From Actinomycetota bacterium (GTDB lineage: Bacteria > Actinomycetota > Coriobacteriia > Anaerosomatales > Anaerosomataceae): 64,000 nucleotides of DNA. Each line of letters starts with the position of its first letter. Within the stretch, counting starts at the first letter, position 1. The notes beneath the pieces were generated by a model. It saw nothing but the letters and a program-made list of their open reading frames with translations, was not told where the DNA came from and made no database searches. Of this stretch, positions 13,927 to 50,118 are shown piece by piece. A program made the position numbers and the translations under genes. The stretch spans positions 62,001-126,000 of the forward strand of contig WSXY01000004.1 in the NCBI GenBank assembly GCA_009773565.1, given 5' to 3'.

Positions 13927-14403
13927 TCATTTCCCGTCTTCGAGCCAGAGCTTCTTGAGTTCTTCGGTGATGAGGTTCGCACCCTTCGGCAGTCCCGCGG
14001 AGGCCGCCGGATACCGGGTGCCTCGCCGCTTCGGGCGAACAGCCTCAAAGAGCGATTCACACCCTAGCACACGCACGCGCCCGCTTGCGGACGCGGACGC
14101 GCGGGCGGTGAGATCCCGATCGCTTGAGACGACCGTCACTTCGCCCTGCTCGGCCGCCGCAAGCCGCACGATCACGTCGTCGGCGGTCTCGTCACCCGAG
14201 AAGCGCACGTCAACCATACCGCCCACCGGTCGCGCGTCATCGGTCCGACCGTCGAAGACGACCGTCAGCGTGCCCGCGCCGAGCAACTGTGCTCCCCGGG
14301 TCGCGAGGCGTTGCACGAGCGCGTCACGCTGCTCCTCCGCCGGAAGCGCACGCGTTGCGGGGTCGTTCATCGTCACGTTGTATCCGTCGATGAGGTGCCG
14401 CAC
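13927..14403 (-). CDS. NYN-domain RNase-like protein (YacP/Rae1 type)
   Basis: 158 residues from the GTG at 14403, preceded by AGGAGA; longer reading upstream lacks homology. The acidic residues of the NYN/PIN-like fold are visible: HLIDGYNVT at the start, FSGDETADDVIVR in the middle, and VTVVSSDRDLT. This is the DUF901/YacP family; the Bacillus member Rae1 is a ribosome-associated mRNA endonuclease. The C-terminal tail is basic (RPKRRGTRYP). It is divergent from the peroxiredoxin gene with an 81-base gap that must hold both promoters. Confidence 0.87.
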   Translation of the reverse strand: MRHLIDGYNVTMNDPATRALPAEEQRDALVQRLATRGAQLLGAGTLTVVFDGRTDDARPVGGMVDVRFSGDETADDVIVRLAAAEQGEVTVVSSDRDLTARASASASGRVRVLGCESLFEAVRPKRRGTRYPAASAGLPKGANLITEELKKLWLEDGK

Positions 14404-14484
14404 AATCGTGACTTCTCCTTCTTCGGTGGTGAGAAGAATCCTAGCAGAGGTAGATACTTCAAGAAGCCCTGAAAGGAGCACACC

Positions 14485-14949
14485 GTGACCGAGCTACACA
14501 TTCCGACCGTCGGAGAGTCGGCGCCCCCCATCGTTGCCGCTGTGACCGGCGGAGGACAGTTCGACCTGTCCGCGCAGCGTGGGAAGTGGGTCGTCATCTA
14601 CTTCTACCCGCGGGCGAACACCCCCGGTTGAACGCACGAAGCGAAGGACTTCCAGGCGCACAAGAGCGATCTGGAAGCCTTAGACGCCCTGGTCGTGGGC
14701 GTGAGTGCAGATAAGCCCGAGACACAGCAGAAGTTCATCGACAAGTTCGAACTCACGTTCCCGATGCTCTCCGATACCACGAAGACGATCATCGAGGCAT
14801 ACGGCGCGCGCGAGGTTCTCGGCGTCACCGCCAAGCGCAAGACGTTCCTCGTCGGCCCGGACGGAGCGATCGCGCGAGCCTGGGACAAGGTGAAGGTCGA
14901 AGGTCACGCCGACGACGTTGTGAGCGCGATCAAGGAGCTTTCGGCGTAG
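14485..14949 (+). CDS. selenocysteine-containing peroxiredoxin (BCP/PrxQ family) read through TGA
   Basis: 154 residues if the in-frame TGA at 14629-14631 is read as selenocysteine (residue 49). The frame runs from the GTG at 14485, after AAAGGAG, to the TAG at 14947. TGA falls exactly on the peroxidatic position of the family motif: YFYPRANTPG-U-THEAKDF, where relatives have TPGC. Downstream the same frame continues with clear peroxiredoxin sequence (VVGVSADKPETQQKF, FPMLSD, RKTFLVGPDG). The protein has no cysteine at all, so no resolving cysteine: reduction would need an outside thiol such as thioredoxin. The alternative is a dead gene or base error, but an error landing on this codon is unlikely. 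A normal gene caller would give only the fragment after the TGA. Confidence 0.85.
14645..14681 (+). promoter_or_regulatory. candidate bacterial SECIS hairpin
   Basis: CTTCCAG (14649-14655) pairs perfectly with CTGGAAG (14671-14677). After one A-C mismatch three more pairs extend the stem outward. An inner CGC/GCG (14657-14659, 14666-14668) leaves a six-base loop about 29-34 bases after the TGA. The distance fits bacterial SECIS elements; the loop sequence is not a clean match to the usual G-first loop. Confidence 0.5.
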
Positions 14950-17347: not shown

Positions 17348-19735
17348 CTACTCGTACGAGATCGCATCCCGGACGCTGACCTGACTTGCACGGAACGCAG
17401 GAGCCAGGCTTGCCGCAAACGAGATGACAGCGATGACGCCGAGCCACGTCACCACCCCGGACCACGAAAAACGGTACGAAAGCGGTATGCCGATGGCACC
17501 GGACAGCAACGAAGTAAGCCCCGTGCTCATCGGATAAGCAATTGCCGCGCCGATTGCCCACGACATGAACCCGACGGTCAATCCTTCGGTGATGAAGATC
17601 TGGTAGATGGAGATGTGTTGCGCCCCGATCGCGCGCATGACGCCGATCTCGCGGGTGCTTTCGATGACGTTGATGCTCATGGTGCCCGTCAGCCCGATGA
17701 TGCCGACCGAGGCAAGCAGAACCGCCATGACCCAGAGGAACCAGACGAGGATCCCAAGCTCGTTGGCGATCGAGTCGCGCAGCTCGGCCTGGGTCCTGGC
17801 GCCGACGACCCGGTAGCCACCCTCGTCCAGACGGGCCTCCGCGCGGTCGAGCGCTGCCCGCTGCATGAGCGGGTCGCTCGTCTCGGTCTTGAGCAGCGTC
17901 TGCGTGACACTCTGATCGCCGATGAACGAACCGAGGACCTCCCGATCGGCATAGATGACCGGGCCGCTCAGCTGTCCGGTGACAACGCCCACGACGTGCC
18001 AGGTGCTGGTCTCGCCGCCGATCTCGAGCGAGACGCGCTGCCCGACATCCAGCGAGGGTTCGGCCTTGCGGGCGTCGGTGTTCACGACGATCGCGTCCTT
18101 GTCGCCCGCCTCGAGCCACCGCCCCGCGAGGAGTTTCGGGCCGACGAACGTGGTGTCGTACGGCATCCCGAGGATGTTGAGGGTCTCGTTCTTGGTGCCG
18201 TCCGGCCGGTCGAGCACCGCTGCCGCGCCTATCCAGCTCTCGACGGCGGAGACACCGCTGGTACCGGCGGCGACCCGCTCGGCACCGATCCGGTCGACGG
18301 GCTGCTCGTAGCGGATCTGCGCGTCGTAGCGCCACCACGCGTCGAGGTCGTCGACGCTCTGCTCGATCGACGCCTGCACGCAGAAGACGCTCATCACAAC
18401 GCCGGACGCGAGCGACAGTGTCGCCAGCGTCATGAGGAGGCGGCCCTTGCGCAGGAACGTGTTTCGAAGCGACAGGGCGACAGGCCTGGGCAGGCCGCGC
18501 AGCAGCCCGAGCGCCCGGTCGACGAGCCCGTGGCCGAACTTCGCGGAGTTGACGCCGGTGTTCGTGAGCGCTCGAACGACGCTCGTGCGCGTACCGAGAC
18601 GGATCGGCACGACAGCGGCGAGAAGCGGCACGATGAGCCCCACGACGACCTCGAGCGCCGTCACCCAGCCGGGCACGGCATACGACGAGATGCGGAAGTT
18701 AAGGATGCCGGCCGCATACTCGATGAACAGCTTGCCGGCGAACTGCGCGGCAGGCACACCGAGTATCACGGCCAGCACGCCGTAGACGGCGACCATCCCG
18801 AGGTACATCCACGTCACCTGCGAGGCCCGGCCGCCGATGGCCTTCATGATGCCGATCTGCTTGATCTGCTGCGAGATGAGCGCAGACACCGTGTTGACCA
18901 CGAGGAACCCCGAGAGCAGCATGCTCAGGAGCCCGAGCGCGAGCAGCAGCAGCGACACCGCCTTGAAGATATCGCCAAGGAAGTGGCTGCCCGGCTTTGG
19001 CACGTTCACGCCGAGAACCGCGACACCGCTGTCCTCAAGCACGTCACGCTGGAGCGAAGCCGCAAGGAGTGATGCCTCGCGGAGCGTGAGGTTGGCGCCC
19101 TTCATCGAAACGAGCAGTTCGTTGAAGGACTCCTGGGCGCCGATATCGGGCAGCGTATCGAAGGAGACATAGCCCGTTTCGCCCCCGACGAACTGCGCCG
19201 GAAACGCATTGATGTCATGCGCGAATCCGGTCACCGTGAGGTTCTCGGTCTTGCCGCTCCTCGTCTCGACCGCAAGCACGTCGCCGATCTTGTAGTCGCC
19301 GGTCTGGAGTGCCGCTCGTTCCAGCACGATCTCGCCACGGTGCGGTGGCCAGCTGAGCACTTCCTCCGGAACGATGCGCTCGACCGTGATGTTCGCGTAG
19401 TCCTTATAGGCGACGACCGAGAGTGAGCGCGGGGCGTCCGAGCCGCTCCAGGTGTAGCGGTATCCGGCCGAGTGCCGTCCCTGCGCTGCCGAGATTCCCG
19501 GGTACTCTGCGGCGCGACGAACGATCTGGTCGTCGAACGGCATCGTGAAGTACGCGGCGTTCTTGGGTTGCGAGGTCGCGAACTCCGCGTCGAACTCACG
19601 GGTCAGGATCGCGCGGCCGCCCATGACGACACCGACCGCGAAGATGCCGGTGGCGATGGACAGCACGACGAGCACCGTGCGGAATCGGTGACCGACGAGG
19701 TCCCGGAAGACCTTCCTCCAGCGGACGGCTCGCAC
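17348..19735 (-). CDS. ABC transporter permease, MacB/FtsX type
   Basis: 795 residues from a GTG start. One N-terminal membrane helix (FRTVLVVLSIATGIFAVGVVMGG) precedes a large extracytoplasmic domain of about 220 residues, three helices, then a second copy of the same arrangement starting near TFLRKGRLLMTLATLSLASGVVMS and ending with three helices. This duplicated FtsX-type layout belongs to the LolC/MacB-like exporters with about ten helices (DUF214). The start lies two bases after the ATPase stop, so they form a transporter. The substrate (lipoprotein, peptide or antibiotic) cannot be told. Confidence 0.92.
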   Translation of the reverse strand: MRAVRWRKVFRDLVGHRFRTVLVVLSIATGIFAVGVVMGGRAILTREFDAEFATSQPKNAAYFTMPFDDQIVRRAAEYPGISAAQGRHSAGYRYTWSGSDAPRSLSVVAYKDYANITVERIVPEEVLSWPPHRGEIVLERAALQTGDYKIGDVLAVETRSGKTENLTVTGFAHDINAFPAQFVGGETGYVSFDTLPDIGAQESFNELLVSMKGANLTLREASLLAASLQRDVLEDSGVAVLGVNVPKPGSHFLGDIFKAVSLLLLALGLLSMLLSGFLVVNTVSALISQQIKQIGIMKAIGGRASQVTWMYLGMVAVYGVLAVILGVPAAQFAGKLFIEYAAGILNFRISSYAVPGWVTALEVVVGLIVPLLAAVVPIRLGTRTSVVRALTNTGVNSAKFGHGLVDRALGLLRGLPRPVALSLRNTFLRKGRLLMTLATLSLASGVVMSVFCVQASIEQSVDDLDAWWRYDAQIRYEQPVDRIGAERVAAGTSGVSAVESWIGAAAVLDRPDGTKNETLNILGMPYDTTFVGPKLLAGRWLEAGDKDAIVVNTDARKAEPSLDVGQRVSLEIGGETSTWHVVGVVTGQLSGPVIYADREVLGSFIGDQSVTQTLLKTETSDPLMQRAALDRAEARLDEGGYRVVGARTQAELRDSIANELGILVWFLWVMAVLLASVGIIGLTGTMSINVIESTREIGVMRAIGAQHISIYQIFITEGLTVGFMSWAIGAAIAYPMSTGLTSLLSGAIGIPLSYRFSWSGVVTWLGVIAVISFAASLAPAFRASQVSVRDAISYE

Positions 19736-19737
19736 CG

Positions 19738-20472
19738 TCAGGCCCCGTGACGCGGCCGGTAGACCCGCTCTTCGGTGATCTCGCCATCAGTGACATGGAG
19801 TGCGCGCCTGACGCGCTTCGCCATGTCGTTGTCATGGGTGACCATGATGATGGTCTTGTGCTGCTCGACAAGGCGCTCGAAGAGACCGAAGACCGCGTCG
19901 GCGGTCTTGGAGTCCAGGTTGCCGGTCGGCTCGTCAGCCGCGAGGATCGGCGGGTCGTTCGCGAGCGCGCGCGCGATAGCTGCACGCTGCTGCTGCCCAC
20001 CAGAGAGCGCCGCCGGAAGCTTGTACGCCTGATCGGCAAGTTCGACTTGCTCGAGCAGGTGCATCGCCCGCTCCACGCGCTCACGCGGGAGCCACATATG
20101 ACAGAAGTCCATCGGCAGCAAGATGTTCTCAAGAACCGTCAATGTGGGAAGCAGCTGGAAGAACTGGAAGACGACACCGATCGTCCGGCCCCGCCACCGC
20201 GCCAGGTCGTTCTCGCCAAGCCGGTGGACGGGCGTGCCGTCGATGACGATCTCGCCGGCCGTGGGGTGGTCGATACCGGTGATCATGTTGATGAGCGTCG
20301 TCTTGCCGCTCCCCGACTTGCCGATGATGCCGACGAACTCGCCGGTATGCACGTCGAGGTCGATGCCTTTGAGCGCGGTGAAGGGTACATCTCCGCTGTC
20401 GTAGGTCTTAACAACGCCGCGAAGGCGAAGCAGCGTGCTGTCGACAGAATCTGGTGTGGCAGTCTCGGACAT
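19738..20472 (-). CDS. ABC transporter ATP-binding protein, LolD/MacB type
   Basis: 244 residues from the ATG at 20472; upstream codons in frame are not conserved in character. Walker A is [17 protein letters not shown], the Q loop [14 protein letters not shown], the signature [15 protein letters not shown], Walker [16 protein letters not shown], and the H loop IIMVTHDND. It energises the neighbouring duplicated FtsX-type permease. It is divergent from the zinc-finger gene with a palindrome in between. Confidence 0.95.
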
Positions 20473-20550
20473 AGCGCGGCAACTCCATCTCGGCATATTT
20501 CGGCAGACAGACGCACGACTCACAGGATATACCCGCCGCGATGCGACGGC

Positions 20551-20567
20551 ACCCCACCGTGTGGGGT
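20551..20567. promoter_or_regulatory. perfect palindrome ACCCCAC-CGT-GTGGGGT
   Basis: Seven-base arms with a three-base centre, 35 bases before the start of the zinc-finger gene at 20603 and 78 bases before the ABC operon. G/C-tract palindromes of this form are used by CsoR/RcnR-type metal or formaldehyde sensors. It could equally be a hairpin; no such regulator is in view. Confidence 0.4.
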
Positions 20568-20602
20568 ATCTAGAACGAAAGCCTCCGGAAGGAAGGGCCG
20601 TC

Positions 20603-20887
20603 ATGAAGTGCGAGCACATCAAAACGAGTGATCCCGACCTGCAAGCCAAAGAACAGGTCTGCGAGGAGTGCGCCAAGATCGGGGATTCGTGGGTGCAGAT
20701 CCGTGTGTGTAAGGTCTGCGGCCACGTGGGGTGCTGTGACTCCTCGGCAAACCGACACGCGAGAGCTCACTTCCACGAGACCGGCCACGCCATCATGGGT
20801 CCCGCCGACCCTGTCACCGGTCACGGCGAGTGGCTCTGGTGCTACGAGCACGACGCATACGTGAGCGAGGACGGCGAAATCGGCTAG
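20603..20887 (+). CDS. UBP-type zinc finger protein
   Basis: 94 residues from the ATG at 20603 after GGAAGGAAGG. Almost the whole protein is one ZnF-UBP domain: [32 protein letters not shown] and the final [10 protein letters not shown] supply the cysteine and histidine ligands. In eukaryotes the domain binds the free C-terminus of ubiquitin; the stand-alone bacterial versions are common in Actinobacteria and have no settled function. There is no partner domain here. The neighbouring genes (ABC exporter, phosphatase) are transcribed from the other strand. Confidence 0.9.
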
Positions 20888-20920: not shown

Positions 20921-22564
20921 CTACGCGCAGGCGAGTTCGAGACGACCCTGCCCGCTGCCGCCGCCCGGCGAGCCAGTGCGACGTATCGCGAGAATCGCGA
21001 CGTCATCATCGAGGTGTCCCTCGGCAAATGAGAATGCCGAGAGGAACAGTGACTCCGGGACTTCCTCGGCAGGCTCGCCGGCGCAGTACGAGACCGTCTC
21101 GAGCAGCCGGTCGTTGCCGAAGCGCTCGCCCTGAGGGTTCTTGGCCTCGGTCAGGCCGTCGGTGTACAGGACGAGAAGGTCACCCGGGTCGAGCACCGTC
21201 TCGCTTGCCGCATACCGCGCGTCCTTGCGGGCTCCAAGCACGATGTGCGGCTCGGCGAGGAAGACCGGGTCGGCGCCGTCTCGCAGGAGCACCGGCGACG
21301 GATGACCCGCGAGGCAGTACGAGAAGTGACCGCTCATGCCGTCGAGCAGGCCGAAGAACGCTGTCGCAAACTCCTCGGGCTCAGAGCCGCGCAACATGAT
21401 GTCGTTGGCGTGGCCGAGAACGCTGCCGGGAGACGGCAACCGCATCGCCTCGGCACGCATCGCGCTCTTAAGGAGCGCAGTAAGCGTAGCCACCTCGACC
21501 CCGTGACCTGAAACGTCGCCCACAAGGAAGCCGGTGCGACTGTCCTCGAGCGGAATCACATCGTAGAAGTCGCCACCGACCCGGGCGCCGACCGACGCCG
21601 AATGGTAGAGGTGACCCAGTTGCATGCCGGGAACGCTCGCAGGCGCACTGAAGAATGCGGATTGCAGCGTCCGCGTAATCCGCTTCTCCGCGTCGTAGAG
21701 CCGCGCGTTCTCAAGCGCGAGCGAGAGCGAGATCGCCAGCTTGTTGGCAACGTCGACGATCGCGTCAGAGAAGGTCGCCTCGGTATCCCAGCAGAAGCCC
21801 ATCACCGCAGAGGGCTCGCCCCGGTGCATGAGCGGCACCATAATGAACGCGCCGATATCGTGGCGCTCCATGAGCGTACGGTGGTCGGGCGGGAGGCCCT
21901 TCTCGCCGGATGCATGCACGACAGCCCGACTTCTGGCCGCAAGTCCTGGCAGCGAAAGCTCGTCCTCCCGGAACGCGAGGCCGACCATCTCGGTGGGCCA
22001 GCCGTGAACATTGCGGAAGACCCACGCGCCATCTTCGCGCTCCGCAAGCCAGCCCCAGTCGGCCTTGAACACCTCAGTCGCCTCAACAAGCACCCGCTGG
22101 AGTATCTCCTCGGAATTAAGCGAGGAGAGGATCGTGTTGTTGATGAGCCCCATTGCCGAACGCAAGTCGGCGTACTCGCGCTCTGCCGCACGCCGCACGA
22201 GAGCCTGTTCGGTGACGTCTATGGCGAAGAGCAACACATCGAACGGGTCACCGATGCGCGACGGCATCGGAAGGTAGCTCAGCTGCCAGAACGACGTGTC
22301 GCCCCAGGAGGCGCGATATTCGTACTCGGGATCTGTGAACGCGGTGCCCGTGTACGCCGCGTCAATGAAGCGCACGGCCGATTTTGTATCCGAGAGAAAG
22401 CCCCGGACCGGCATTCCGAGTAGATCGTACTGCGGACGCGCATCGTCCATGAGGTCGAGGAACGCCTTGTTCGTCCAGCGGAAGCGCAACTCCGCTCCCG
22501 ACCAGAGCGCAGCCGGGAACGACGAGCCTTCCAGCAGCAGGGTCAGACGCGCCCAGTCGCTCAA
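20921..22564 (-). CDS. PAS-GAF-PP2C (SpoIIE-type) serine phosphatase
   Basis: About 547 residues. An N-terminal PAS domain (residues ~5-130, LEGSSFPAALWSGAELRFRW), a GAF domain (~150-310), and a SpoIIE/RsbU phosphatase domain (~320-540) with the metal-binding acids in GGDFYDVIPLED, FLVGDVSGHGVEVA, VLYTDGLTEAKN and HLDDDVAILAI. Such proteins set anti-sigma-factor antagonists in partner-switching pathways. No cognate STAS or kinase gene is in view. The start is uncertain: the frame is open for about 80 bases further, without ATG or GTG, and TTG at 22564 lacks a good ribosome site. Confidence 0.88.
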   Translation of the reverse strand: MSDWARLTLLLEGSSFPAALWSGAELRFRWTNKAFLDLMDDARPQYDLLGMPVRGFLSDTKSAVRFIDAAYTGTAFTDPEYEYRASWGDTSFWQLSYLPMPSRIGDPFDVLLFAIDVTEQALVRRAAEREYADLRSAMGLINNTILSSLNSEEILQRVLVEATEVFKADWGWLAEREDGAWVFRNVHGWPTEMVGLAFREDELSLPGLAARSRAVVHASGEKGLPPDHRTLMERHDIGAFIMVPLMHRGEPSAVMGFCWDTEATFSDAIVDVANKLAISLSLALENARLYDAEKRITRTLQSAFFSAPASVPGMQLGHLYHSASVGARVGGDFYDVIPLEDSRTGFLVGDVSGHGVEVATLTALLKSAMRAEAMRLPSPGSVLGHANDIMLRGSEPEEFATAFFGLLDGMSGHFSYCLAGHPSPVLLRDGADPVFLAEPHIVLGARKDARYAASETVLDPGDLLVLYTDGLTEAKNPQGERFGNDRLLETVSYCAGEPAEEVPESLFLSAFSFAEGHLDDDVAILAIRRTGSPGGGSGQGRLELACA

Positions 22565-22759
22565 AGGTCCGGGGTTGAAACCGACACCCTCGTTTCTATT
22601 CCCTGACCTGGCCGTGTCGACCTCCTCAAGAAGACACTTCTAACGGGTACGTTCCCCGTCTTAGGGGTTATCGGCTTGATGACAGGTGCGCTGTAGCCGT
22701 TACCGCTGTACGGCAGCAGGGGGATATACAACGGTCATCGCCAATCGAGGGGGTGCACC

Positions 22760-23674
22760 ATGATCCGCCGAACACTTCCAAGGAATCTGCTGCTTGTGGC
22801 GCTCGCGATCGCGCTTGTCGCGGGAGGCCTCGCGGGGTGCAAGCCGAAGACCCCGTCATCCTCAACCGGCGACACAACATCGTCGGTGACTCCCAGTGCG
22901 ACTCCCGCGGGCGAATCAACCGATGATGGCAGCGCCACCGGCACGACGGTGCCTGGCAAGCCGATCTCCGTGCGCGTGTACCTCACCCGTGGCGAGAAGA
23001 TCGGCGCTGCGACCAGGCAGATTCCGGCGACGAAGGCCGTTGCGAGTGCAGCGATCAGGGAGCTTCTCGCAGGCCCCACTGCCGAAGAGGTGGCTTACGG
23101 TCTTGGCACGGTCATTCCCGCGGACACAGAGCTGCGGGGTGTGACGGTGAAAGCCGGTACGGCCACGGTCGACCTGAGCGGCGAGTACGACGCTGGCGGC
23201 GGCACGCTCTCCATGACGATGCGGCTTGCGCAAGTCGTGTACACACTCACGCAGTTCCCGACCATCGATCGCGTGCTCTTCCGGATCGAGGGGGTACCGG
23301 TAACGACTTTCGGCGGCGAAGGCATCATGATCGGCACGCCGCAGACGCGCGACGACTACGAGGACGTCACGCCCGCGATCCTTGTCGAGACACCGACACC
23401 GGGTCAGGCCGTTTCCGGAAACGTTCGCGTCACGGGAACCTCGAACGTCTTCGAGGCAGTCTTCCTCGCAGAGATCCGCGATGCGGGTGGCACGACGATC
23501 GCGAAGAAGGTCGTGACATCCACGTCGGGTACCGGCACGCGAGGCGCCTATGACGTGACGATTCCGTTCACCGTGCCGACAACACAGATGGGGTCACTCG
23601 TCGTCTACGAGGCGTCAGCCAAAGACGGCTCCCCCATCAACGTCGTCAAGATCTCACTCAAACTCACAAAATGA
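22760..23674 (+). CDS. GerMN/Gmad2 domain lipoprotein
   Basis: 304 residues. A lipoprotein signal LLLVALAIALVAGGLAGC, a low-complexity Ser/Thr linker to about residue 65, a GerMN domain (VRVYLTRGEKIGAATRQ to VLFRIEGVPV) and a C-terminal Gmad2 immunoglobulin-like domain (ILVETPTPGQAVSGNVRVTG). These domains occur in sporulation proteins and in many non-sporulating actinobacterial surface proteins such as LpqB partners. It probably acts at the outer face of the membrane. GAGGGGGTG precedes the ATG. Its last 11 bases overlap the 3' end of the convergent nifU gene. Confidence 0.88.
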   Translation: MIRRTLPRNLLLVALAIALVAGGLAGCKPKTPSSSTGDTTSSVTPSATPAGESTDDGSATGTTVPGKPISVRVYLTRGEKIGAATRQIPATKAVASAAIRELLAGPTAEEVAYGLGTVIPADTELRGVTVKAGTATVDLSGEYDAGGGTLSMTMRLAQVVYTLTQFPTIDRVLFRIEGVPVTTFGGEGIMIGTPQTRDDYEDVTPAILVETPTPGQAVSGNVRVTGTSNVFEAVFLAEIRDAGGTTIAKKVVTSTSGTGTRGAYDVTIPFTVPTTQMGSLVVYEASAKDGSPINVVKISLKLTK

Positions 23675-24124: not shown

Positions 24125-25315
24125 TCAGGCGGACTGTGCGCCGAACATCTTGTCGTAAACGGGCGACATCGAGCGCAGCCGCTCGACGATCGGAACCAGT
24201 GAATCAACGAAGTAATCGATCTCGGCCTCGGTCGTGAAACGACCCATGCTCAGCCGGAGCGACCCGTGCGCGATCTCCTGCGGGCAATCGATAGCGAGCA
24301 GGACGTGGCTTGCGGTGAGCGAGCCGGAGGAGCACGCAGAACCCGTGGAAACTGCGATGCCCTTCGCGTCGAGGTGCAGGAGCATCGCCTCGCCCTCGAC
24401 ACCCTTCACGATGAGGCTCGTGATATGCGGCATCCGCGAGACGTTCGCGCCGTTGACGTACACGTTCTCGAGCCGGGCGACCGCAGCCGCTTCGAGGCGA
24501 TCGCGAAGCGCGGTCAGGCGGATGGTCTCGGAGACGCGATCGGCGTCCATCAACTCGAGGGCGGTCGCGAACCCTTGCGCGCCGGGGACGTTCTGCGTGC
24601 CGCTACGCTTACGGAACTCCTGACCGCCACCCATGAGGTACGGCGCGAACCGCAGCCCCTTCTTGAGATAGAGCACGCCGACGCCCTTGGGGCCGTAGAA
24701 CTTGTGTCCCGAGAAGGACATCGCGTCCACCCCGAGCGCCTGCACGTCGATGTCGAGTTTGCCAAGCGTCTGCGCCGCGTCGGAGTGGAAGAGTGCCCCG
24801 CGCCCGTGCGCAGCGGCCGCGAGCTCAGCGATGGGCTGAACCGTGCCAAGCTCGTTGTTGCCATGCATGATCGACACGAGCACCGTGTCGTCTCGCAGCA
24901 GCTTCTCCAGCGCGGCGACCGAGACGACGCCGTCGGTGTCCGGCTTGACGAGCGAGACGTCAAAACCGTGCTTAGCCAGCCACTCGGCAGGCTCAAGGAT
25001 CGCGTGATGCTCGAACGCCGACACGATGAGGTGCCCCGACGTCCGTCCACCGGCGGTCATGAGGCCGATAAGTGCGGCGTTGTCCGACTCGGTGCCACCG
25101 GAGGTGAAGAGGACCTCGTCGGGCCTCTCGGCATTGAGTGACGCGCGCACACGCTCGCGTGCGTTCTCGAGCGCGCTATGCGCCGCGCGACCTTCGGTGT
25201 GGAGGCTGTTCGGGTTGCCGTACGTTTCGGTGAAGAACGGCTCCATGGCGGCGACAACACGCGGGTCGGTCTTGGTGGTGGCGGCGTTGTCGAGGTAGAT
25301 GCGTGTGTCGGACAT
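24125..25315 (-). CDS. nifS: cysteine desulfurase NifS/IscS
   Basis: 396 residues from the ATG at 25315, preceded by AAGGAG. It uses PLP to take sulfur from cysteine. Visible are YLDNAATTKTDPRVVAAM, FTSGGTESDNAAL, HGNNELGTVQPI, SFSGHKFYGPKGVGVLYL with the PLP lysine, and the sulfur-accepting cysteine in STGSACSSGS. The start lies two bases after the stop of the Rrf2 regulator, so regulator, desulfurase and scaffold form one operon. Confidence 0.96.
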   Translation of the reverse strand: MSDTRIYLDNAATTKTDPRVVAAMEPFFTETYGNPNSLHTEGRAAHSALENARERVRASLNAERPDEVLFTSGGTESDNAALIGLMTAGGRTSGHLIVSAFEHHAILEPAEWLAKHGFDVSLVKPDTDGVVSVAALEKLLRDDTVLVSIMHGNNELGTVQPIAELAAAAHGRGALFHSDAAQTLGKLDIDVQALGVDAMSFSGHKFYGPKGVGVLYLKKGLRFAPYLMGGGQEFRKRSGTQNVPGAQGFATALELMDADRVSETIRLTALRDRLEAAAVARLENVYVNGANVSRMPHITSLIVKGVEGEAMLLHLDAKGIAVSTGSACSSGSLTASHVLLAIDCPQEIAHGSLRLSMGRFTTEAEIDYFVDSLVPIVERLRSMSPVYDKMFGAQSA

Positions 25316-25317
25316 TG

Positions 25318-25761
25318 CTACTCCTTGGTCGAAGCGGCTGGCACGAGCGCGTCCAGCCGGAGTTGATCGGTTGCAAGATCGGCGAGCGTTGCCGAGGCGA
25401 GAACGTCGCGAACGGCGTCGCTCACGCGGGACCAGATGGTGCCCGCAGCGCACCGCGCGCTCTGGGCACACCCGACGCCCTCTTGTGCGCACACGCTCGG
25501 GGCGAGCGGTCCTTCGAGTGCCTCGACGGCATCGAGTACCGAGATCTCCCCGGCCGGTCTCGTAAGTACATACCCACCACGTGCGCCACGCGTCGAAGTC
25601 ACGACACCGGCACGCTTGAGGGCCGAAAGGAGCTGCTCGAGAAACTTGAGCGGCATACCCCAGCGCTCGGCCAATTCGCGCGCGCTCGACGGCTGCCCGC
25701 CAGCGGAAGCGATCTCCACCAGTGCGAGAAGTCCGTATTCGCTGCGTGCGGTAAGGCGCAT
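25318..25761 (-). CDS. Rrf2-family regulator, IscR-like
   Basis: 147 residues. A winged helix at the N-terminus (LTARSEYGLLALVEIA, AERWGMPLKFLEQLLSALKRAG, STRGARGGYVLTRP) is followed by a loop with three cysteines (PSVCAQEGVGCAQSARCAAG), the usual [2Fe-2S] or [4Fe-4S] site of IscR-like sensors. It heads the nifS-nifU operon and lies under a promoter with a perfect palindrome over the -10 box, so it probably represses its own operon when holding a cluster. Confidence 0.9.
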   Translation of the reverse strand: MRLTARSEYGLLALVEIASAGGQPSSARELAERWGMPLKFLEQLLSALKRAGVVTSTRGARGGYVLTRPAGEISVLDAVEALEGPLAPSVCAQEGVGCAQSARCAAGTIWSRVSDAVRDVLASATLADLATDQLRLDALVPAASTKE

Positions 25762-42891: not shown

Positions 42892-43839
42892 ATGTCCGAT
42901 ACGGAGACTATCGATATTGCCATCATCGGCGGCGGACCGGCCGGACTCACGGCCGCCCTTTACGCCTCGCGCGCCCGGGCCAAGACAGTCGTGTTTGAAA
43001 GCGGCCTCCCCGGCGGGCAAATTGTCACAACCGACTGGGTCGAGAACTACCCCGGCTTTCCCGACGGCATCTCGGGAGCCGAGATCGGTGACCTGATGCA
43101 CCGGCAGGCGGAGCACTTCGGTGCCGAGTTCCGCACGTTTGCGGCGATCGAACGCATCGAGCCGAGCGGCATGGACTTTCTTCTGACGAATGCGGAGGAC
43201 GAGCAGGTCATCGCCCGCTCCGTCATCCTCGCGACCGGCGCCGTACCGAAGCGCCTGAACGTACCTGGCGAGGCGGAGTTCACCGGCCGCGGGGTTTCGT
43301 GGTGCGCGACATGCGACGGTGCGTTCTTCCGCGACAAGATCGTAGCGATCATCGGCGGCGGGGACGCGGCGGTCGAGGAGGCGATCTTCCTCACTAAGTT
43401 CGCAAGCCGGGTACACATCGTTCATCGGCGCGATGAGCTCCGCGCAACAAAGTGTATCCAGGAGAAATGCTTCGCGAACGACAAGGTGGAGCTGCAACTG
43501 AGCCGCGTGGTCACCGAGGTCATAGGTACCGACGGCAGGGTTTCCGGCGTCCGCCTCGCCTCAACAAAGGGTGAGCCTGAGATAGTACTGCCACTTCAGG
43601 GCATATTCATCTTCGTGGGAGTAGAGCCCAAGAGTGAGCTCGTGAAGGATCTCTGCGACCTCGACCAGGCTGGCTACGTGAAGATAGACCACGACGGACT
43701 CACGTCGTATCCTGGCCTGTATGCGGCAGGCGACGTCACTGACTCGGACTTGAAGCAGGTCATTACTGCAGCAGCGAAGGGCGCCTCGGCAGCATTTGAG
43801 GCTCTCCGGTGGATAGATGAGCGGGTCTGCACCATCTAG
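42892..43839 (+). CDS. trxB: thioredoxin reductase
   Basis: 315 residues. FAD-binding IAIIGGGPAGLTAALYASRA, redox pair SWCATCDGAFF, NADPH-binding IIGGGDAAVEEAIFL, and C-terminal PGLYAAGDVTDSDLKQVITAAAKG, all as in TrxB. It reduces thioredoxin with NADPH. It is directly coupled to the PIN-TPR gene upstream, and trxA follows 35 bases downstream. Confidence 0.97.
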   Translation: MSDTETIDIAIIGGGPAGLTAALYASRARAKTVVFESGLPGGQIVTTDWVENYPGFPDGISGAEIGDLMHRQAEHFGAEFRTFAAIERIEPSGMDFLLTNAEDEQVIARSVILATGAVPKRLNVPGEAEFTGRGVSWCATCDGAFFRDKIVAIIGGGDAAVEEAIFLTKFASRVHIVHRRDELRATKCIQEKCFANDKVELQLSRVVTEVIGTDGRVSGVRLASTKGEPEIVLPLQGIFIFVGVEPKSELVKDLCDLDQAGYVKIDHDGLTSYPGLYAAGDVTDSDLKQVITAAAKGASAAFEALRWIDERVCTI

Positions 43840-43874: not shown

Positions 43875-44204
43875 ATGAGCGAGAATCTCAAGCACGTCAC
43901 GGACGCGAGTTTCGACACCGATGTTATCGACAGCGACAAGCCTGTCGTTCTCGACTTCTGGGCGCCCTGGTGCGGCCCGTGCCGCATGATGGAACCGGTC
44001 CTCGAGGAACTCGCCAACGAGTACGAGGGCAAGATCGTCGTCGCCAAGCTCAACGTCGACGAGAACCCCGGAACGGCAACCAAGTTCGACATCCTCTCTA
44101 TCCCGACGCTGCTCATCTTCAACAAGGGCGAAGTGGCCAAGAAGCTCGTCGGCGCAATGCCGAAGAAGCGGCTCATCGAGGAACTCGCTTCCTGGATCGG
44201 CTAG
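43875..44204 (+). CDS. trxA: thioredoxin
   Basis: 109 residues, full length. The active site is WAPWCGPCRMMEPV, and the cis-proline is in ILSIPTLLIF. It is the electron donor for ribonucleotide reductase, methionine sulfoxide reductases and peroxiredoxins. A GAGAGGAG ribosome site precedes the ATG. It is a plausible reductant for the Sec peroxiredoxin elsewhere in the window (inference). Confidence 0.97.
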   Translation: MSENLKHVTDASFDTDVIDSDKPVVLDFWAPWCGPCRMMEPVLEELANEYEGKIVVAKLNVDENPGTATKFDILSIPTLLIFNKGEVAKKLVGAMPKKRLIEELASWIG

Positions 44205-49107: not shown

Positions 49108-50118
49108 ATGCAATCGGATCGCATCTTGCTCGCGCACGGCAGTGGCGGCACCATGATGCGCGACCTCATCAACGACGTCTTCATGACGGGCTTCAGCGAC
49201 GACATCCTCATGCGGATGGACGATGCCGCGTCGCTCGACTTTCCTGGCTCGCGACTCGCATTCTCGACTGACACGTACGTCGTGAACCCGCTCTTCTTCC
49301 CGGGCGCGGACATCGGCCGCCTGGCCGTCTGTGGCACCGTGAACGACGTCGCCACATCCGGTGCGAAGCCACTCTACCTCTCGGTCGGCTTCGTGCTTGA
49401 GGAAGGCTTCCCCGTCGAGGACTTGCGTCGCATCCTCGTCTCAATGCGCGATGCAGCCGCCGAGGCGGGCGTGCGCATCGTGACCGGCGATACCAAGGTC
49501 GTCGAGAAGGGCCATGGCGACGGCTGCTACATCAACACAGCTGGCGTCGGCGTGCTCGCCGAGGGGCTCGACCTCTCGGGATCGAACTGCCAGGCCGGCG
49601 ACGTCGTGTTGCTCTCGGGCACGCTCGGCGATCACGGCATCGCGGTCATCTCGACTCGTGAAGGCCTCACGTTCTCGACAGATATCGAGAGTGACGCTGC
49701 ACCACTCGGCGCGCTCATCGCCGCGGTTCTCGCTGTCGCACCGGATACTCGCTGCTTCCGCGATCCGACGCGTGGCGGGCTTGCCAGCACGCTCAACGAA
49801 CTGGCAGGCGCGTCCGGCGTGTGCATCACCATCGACGAGACCCTCGTGCCTGTGCGCGAGCAGGTGCGCGGCGCGTGCGAGATGCTCGGCTACGACGTCT
49901 TCCAGGTCGCCAACGAAGGCAAGATGGTCACCGTCGTCCCTGCGTCGCAGGCCGAAGCGGCCCTCGCTGCGATGCGCGACGCCCCGTACGGTGAGGACGC
50001 CGCCATCATCGGTGAGGTCGCCGAGAGCCCCGCCGGCCGCGTCTACGTGCAGACCGCATTTGGCGCGACGCGCATCATGGACATGCTCGTCGGCGAGCAG
50101 CTGCCGAGGATCTGCTAG
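49108..50118 (+). CDS. hypE: hydrogenase maturation protein HypE
   Basis: 336 residues from the ATG at 49108 after GGGAGG. A PurM-like ATPase: ILLAHGSGGTMMRDLI, RLAVCGTVNDVATSGAKP, RDPTRGGLASTLNELA, NEGKMVTVVPA. It ends in LPRIC; the last-residue cysteine is the group that is carbamoylated by HypF and dehydrated to thiocyanate. It completes hypF-C-D-E. hypA, hypB and any hydrogenase subunit must lie elsewhere or be absent. Confidence 0.96.
   Translation: MQSDRILLAHGSGGTMMRDLINDVFMTGFSDDILMRMDDAASLDFPGSRLAFSTDTYVVNPLFFPGADIGRLAVCGTVNDVATSGAKPLYLSVGFVLEEGFPVEDLRRILVSMRDAAAEAGVRIVTGDTKVVEKGHGDGCYINTAGVGVLAEGLDLSGSNCQAGDVVLLSGTLGDHGIAVISTREGLTFSTDIESDAAPLGALIAAVLAVAPDTRCFRDPTRGGLASTLNELAGASGVCITIDETLVPVREQVRGACEMLGYDVFQVANEGKMVTVVPASQAEAALAAMRDAPYGEDAAIIGEVAESPAGRVYVQTAFGATRIMDMLVGEQLPRIC

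Follow-up and report, generated by a model that had tools for sequence, protein, structure and literature searches.

A cysteine-free PrxQ-type peroxiredoxin with a predicted selenocysteine at its peroxidatic position in the order Anaerosomatales

The locus and its selenocysteine genes

The window, i.e., the whole stretch of 64,000 nucleotides analysed here, corresponds to bases 62001-126000 of a 150-kb contig belonging to a genome of 2.27 Mb (98.5% complete). It carries a gene for a peroxiredoxin (Prx) of the PrxQ type in which a TGA codon occupies the position of the peroxidatic cysteine, hereafter Sec-PrxQ (Table 1). The frame is sense from 14485 to 14946 and closes with TAG at 14947-14949; when TGA is translated as selenocysteine (Sec, U), the chain includes one in-frame TGA, at codon 49, and zero Cys. 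A GGAG-type sequence precedes the start in most orthologues, no signal peptide is evident in the protein, and no promoter or terminator match was obtained near the gene. As the preliminary description had anticipated for ordinary gene callers, the standard list of open reading frames of the window misses the gene, its sole product being an 84-residue fragment from 14695. Such genes have likely been split or dropped by standard annotation in Coriobacteriia.

Table 1. Features of the Sec-PrxQ locus and of the associated genes (positions in the window; for selA, selB, selC and selD, positions on the contig)
Feature	Position	Strand	Detail and basis
selC, tRNA-Sec	14067-14159		1.3e-12, over cut-off; anticodon UCA
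Ribosome-binding site region GAAAGGAG upstream of GTG start	14471..14484	+	direct sequence reading
Sec-PrxQ coding sequence	14485..14949	+	154 aa, GTG start, TAG stop; TGA=U translation, Pfam/NCBIfam matches, orthologues
TGA, predicted selenocysteine 49, peroxidatic position of PxxxTxGU	14629..14631	+	same codon in 30/30 orthologues read
Putative bSECIS hairpin	14643..14682	+	5' arm AAGGACUUCCAG, 3' arm CUGGAAGCCUU; fold, recoding and pair-count tests
selB	18991-20865		380 bits
selA	22000-23358		605 bits
selD	24695-25612		371 bits; own in-frame TGA
trxB, thioredoxin reductase, part of the proposed donor chain for electrons	42892..43839	+	TIGR01292 358.5 bits, over cut-off; CATC motif
trxA, thioredoxin WCGPC, proposed reductant of selenenic acid	43875..44204	+	PF00085 1.1e-33

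The genes for Sec synthesis and insertion lie on the same contig as Sec-PrxQ. All four, selA, selB, selC and selD, are present within 12 kb, and the initial claim of Sec decoding, which had been tied to their presence in the genome, stands. A weak SelD-like match at window positions 49213-49947 (42 bits) probably represents a different protein of the ATP-grasp-like AIR-synthase superfamily that includes SelD. Two of the genomes with a Sec-PrxQ orthologue (G010 and G013, 96-98% complete) yielded no selB over the cut-off and no selC, probably owing to an assembly gap at the sel cluster.

Conservation and decoding of the in-frame UGA

Conservation was surveyed at two scales. In a first survey of 61 genomes (the genome itself and 60 relatives), a strong match to Sec-PrxQ, defined by at least 60% identity, was found in 32, with exactly one TGA in each. 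The preliminary description had placed the TGA on the catalytic position of the TPGC motif, and this is borne out by the sequence TPGU and by the TGA standing at the identical codon in each of the 30 orthologues whose residues were read one by one. In a survey of the class (398 Coriobacteriia genomes), one TGA was present in 34 of 34 matches from the same order, Anaerosomatales, and in none of the 39 from other orders. No Cys orthologue was detected within Anaerosomatales at E <= 1e-20 in this survey; the two TGA-less matches from the survey of 61 genomes, in G040 (read as L172) and G028, were rejected as distant, with 26% identity. Genes of endonuclease III, DUF554 and NYN types (named by sequence reading) are kept upstream in 16-19 of 26 loci, which argues that the locus is vertically inherited. 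Outside the class, no Sec-PrxQ with TGA appeared among the matches listed for 379 genomes of one other phylum, all plasmid matches were under 60% identity and none was found in viral contigs. In a pattern scan of genome contigs, one pattern spells the active-site Cys, and Sec relatives are reachable via the second pattern only.

The absence of cysteine is also conserved. The stretch is Cys-free in 27 of the 30 orthologues read, as it is in L068 and in the partial L074, and in the other three a single Cys immediately follows Sec. In L073, a gene also listed as L174, this UC pair is accompanied by one Cys near the C-terminus. The resulting motif GUCHEA was observed in four members in all (L044, L048, L050 and L073), resembling an evolved vicinal Se-S pair.

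These surveys bear on whether the TGA is genuine and whether it is a stop. Since TGC and TGT each differ from TGA by one base, a sequencing error or an artefact of the metagenome-assembled genome at 14629-14631 might be suspected; this is refuted by the single in-frame TGA of 33 other, independently assembled genomes, at the same codon in all those read, and is the least probable of the explanations weighed here. The preliminary reading, which had been made to hinge on the absence of TGC or TGT from this codon, agrees with the TGA shown by these independent genomes. If the UGA were a real stop, the gene would be a decayed or truncated peroxiredoxin or a pair of cistrons, as its splitting by standard gene calling may suggest. 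However, the frame is conserved order-wide with purifying selection downstream of the TGA (dN 0.12-0.28 vs dS 0.39-1.13), and in every sequence read the TGA coincides with the catalytic codon. Given this conservation, a split or decayed gene is very unlikely.

Reassignment of UGA to another amino acid such as Trp or Gly would equally leave the frame open. Against it, 12 of the window's 35 open frames with 350 codons or more end in TGA, which is also the terminal stop of several Sec-PrxQ orthologues, the Sec machinery is complete, and homologues have Cys in that column. No other convincing gene with an in-frame TGA was seen within the window, nor was the large number of TGA codons inside other conserved frames that a reassignment would entail. 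This possibility, even more improbable than that of a real stop, was rejected.

A predicted hairpin just downstream of the codon provides a further argument for Sec decoding. The 67 nt beginning just 5' of the TGA fold with z = -3.0. In a codon-constrained test, in which the protein is held fixed and synonymous codons are redrawn, the 48-nt stretch directly 3' of the TGA folds on average 6.3 kcal/mol better than the recodings across 30 orthologues, with a z of about -12 that overstates the independence of these related sequences, the informative part being the local peak. Elsewhere along the gene, the same test gave z values from +2.3 to -5. Folding each orthologue separately yields a common stem in relatives, AAGGAC(U)UCCAG with CUGGAGUCCUU, whereas in the window hairpin the predicted bulge is the A of GGAC and not the U. 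Positions of the stem are paired in 87.5% of cases vs 20-52% when the pairing is slid, and two pairs are changed on both sides. This covariation is modest and would alone be weak evidence, the synonymous-recoding test being the informative one.

According to passages of PMC13188914, the bSECIS consensus places the apical loop 16-37 nt past the UGA, with an energy of at most -7.5 kcal/mol and a G among the first two bases of the loop. The predicted loop of the window, ACAAGA, which starts 28 nt after the UGA, agrees with the rules for distance and energy and departs from the G rule, as it begins with AC. In two members of another family (L049/L050), the loop AGGCUR does follow the G rule. Their hairpin, GACUUCC-AGGCUR-GGAAGUC, presents a canonical small loop; its 5' arm is retained, and a sequence closer by has taken over as the 3' arm. 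A search of the window with Rfam at gathering scores was negative, a result that bears only on such bSECIS elements as its library contains.

Taken together, the structure and conservation of the gene, the Sec machinery, the local RNA hairpin, the predicted fold, the residues of the active site and the absence of Cys argue strongly that UGA 49 is decoded as selenocysteine, as first proposed, with the complete set of sel genes, the codon conserved in independent genomes and the SECIS-type hairpin brought out by the codon-constrained fold test among the supports.

Active site and proposed catalytic cycle

The initial observation that family sequence continues beyond the TGA is confirmed by the Pfam AhpC-TSA domain (PF00578), which spans the codon and covers residues 9-130 (8.4e-35, 119.9 bits vs a cut-off of 26). 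Among NCBIfam models, PrxQ NF053650 ranks first (residues 23-151, 9.2e-38); Sec-PrxQ remains below the equivalog cut-offs of both NF053650 (129.5 of 260 bits) and NF006960 (94 of 140 bits). Judged from its sequence, the protein is of the PrxQ type, yet it lies outside the curated NCBIfam equivalogs. The AlphaFold model (pLDDT 89.7) retrieves BCP/PrxQ chains of the PDB as top structure matches, with TM scores mostly of 0.8-0.9, and a PDB sequence search likewise places BCP/PrxQ structures first. The PrxQ/BCP motif, described in passages of PMC5302317 as P(K/A/R)(D/A)xTxG-Cp with a Gly before Cp and a conserved Arg, is found as P42-R-A-N-T46-P-G-U49 together with R118, Sec replacing Cys. T46, U49 and R118 are invariant across the orthologues. 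In 2-Cys PrxQs, the resolving Cys is sought at +5 or in helix 3. Here, the +5 residue is Lys (Lys, Asn, Asp or Ala in relatives) and Cys is absent elsewhere, in line with the Cys-free chain claimed from the outset.

The catalytic cycle that these features suggest would rely on a single Sec. Ribosomes would read UGA 49 as selenocysteine with the help of SelB, tRNA-Sec and the hairpin that closely follows the codon. In the Prx active site, Thr46 and Arg118 would hold the Sec selenolate, which would then reduce a peroxide and be converted into a selenenic acid. As no resolving Cys is available in the chain, the reductant should come from outside: an external thiol would form a selenenylsulfide and then complete the reduction. 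The likeliest donor may be the TrxB/TrxA pair of the same window, whose adjacent genes lie 28 kb from prxQ. In the proteins with UC, the neighbouring Cys might offer a variant route. We put the probability of this reading as a whole, a 1-Sec PrxQ/BCP with UGA 49 decoded as Sec and an external thiol, likeliest from TrxB/TrxA, at roughly 85%. Of the one-Sec cycle with an outside reductant proposed in the preliminary description, the lack of a resolving Cys and the conservation of this lack hold; peroxidase activity and thioredoxin (Trx) as the donor are what we infer from the features above.

The genome search returned one clear thioredoxin and one thioredoxin reductase over the cut-off, and Sec-PrxQ was the only PF00578 (AhpC/TSA) protein found. 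Since the chain is Cys-free, any outside thiol could serve, and resolution by something other than thioredoxin, whether a small thiol, a different redoxin or a diselenide linking two subunits, is possible though rather unlikely. No reductant gene adjoins prxQ, and the genome also encodes a thioredoxin-domain protein with a WUPSC active site; both would suit such a route. However, this WUPSC protein looks exported, with a lipoprotein-like N-terminus, whereas PrxQ shows no signal peptide, and a standard trxB-trxA pair is present. Characterised PrxQs are, in addition, typically Trx-dependent. One such example comes from C. glutamicum (PMC5811025). TrxB/TrxA thus stays the preferred donor. The WUPSC protein, a lipoprotein-like rhodanese-thioredoxin fusion (L176, G000:C3:45400-46400), is a second selenoprotein candidate of the genome.

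Comparison with known peroxiredoxins

Selenocysteine-containing peroxiredoxins include PrxU of Eubacterium acidaminophilum, cited as such in passages of PMC13188914. Sec-PrxQ shares this property with PrxU, whereas the PrxU model NF040737 is longer (233 positions) and Sec-PrxQ scores only 50.1 bits against its 270-bit cut-off. In sister genomes of the order, in-frame TGA codons were also observed at FTPVU (AhpE-like) and FTFVU (AhpC/PrxU-like) active sites (L162, L163, L165-L168 and L171; L169 and L170); neither type was found in the genome of the window. Genome G033 contains yet another type of redoxin (L164), whose in-frame TGA lies within an SGUTIVAAE motif.

The 2-Cys PrxQs from other orders of Coriobacteriia belong to the same bacterial class and possess the same domain, but they use a peroxidatic Cys and, in 17 of the 19 read, a resolving Cys at +5. 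A tree that includes Cys PrxQs unites the Sec proteins (100/99) and separates them from the group of Coriobacteriia Cys PrxQs (100/99), but leaves the sister group of the Sec proteins without resolution. Similar in their active site are, for example, the PrxQ/BCP proteins without resolving Cys from Sphingomonas and Hyphomicrobiales (L081, L085-L091), which have 43-46% identity and the motif TPGxTHEA and likewise lack Cys where PrxQs carry a resolving one. They differ in having Cys and not Sec, within TPGCTHEA[IL]DF, as the single Cys of the matched stretch. PrxQs combining the TPGCTHEA motif with a single Cys thus occur in Alphaproteobacteria.

The nearest catalogued selenoproteins are the Sec-Prx of COG1225 (Bcp)/PF00578, in which a PrxQ/BCP-type domain likewise carries Sec for the peroxidatic Cys in PxxxTxxU. 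Passages of PMC1088965 report 43 Sargasso Sea sequences of COG1225 with TxxU in 2005, those of PMC2398784 a Prx family with TxxU of 253 GOS sequences, and the type is listed in passages of the reviews PMC13188914 and PMC9312934. The rarity implied by the preliminary description was therefore overstated, as Sec-PrxQ of COG1225 has been known since 2005 (PMC1088965) and PrxQs without resolving Cys are common. The passages searched in these four papers make no statement on a resolving Cys in COG1225 Sec-Prx and name no example from Coriobacteriia.

The catalogue of Sec peroxiredoxins is extended to Coriobacteriia, with an indication of a nearby Trx/TrxR pair. More tentatively, at somewhat below even odds in our estimation, the order would rely on a Cys-free, selenium-dependent 1-Sec PrxQ with no Cys version beside it, some members having no other AhpC/TSA peroxiredoxin, and its regeneration would depend wholly on an outside thiol; such a mechanistic variant would be undescribed for the catalogued Sec peroxiredoxins. 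Such a natural case, with peroxiredoxin redox chemistry carried by one Sec in an order without a detected Cys orthologue, allows asking what Sec buys when the resolving residue is absent. In comparison with the COG1225 Sec-Prx, the protein is very probably a real selenoprotein of a catalogued type, with a Cys-free form kept across an order as its particular feature.
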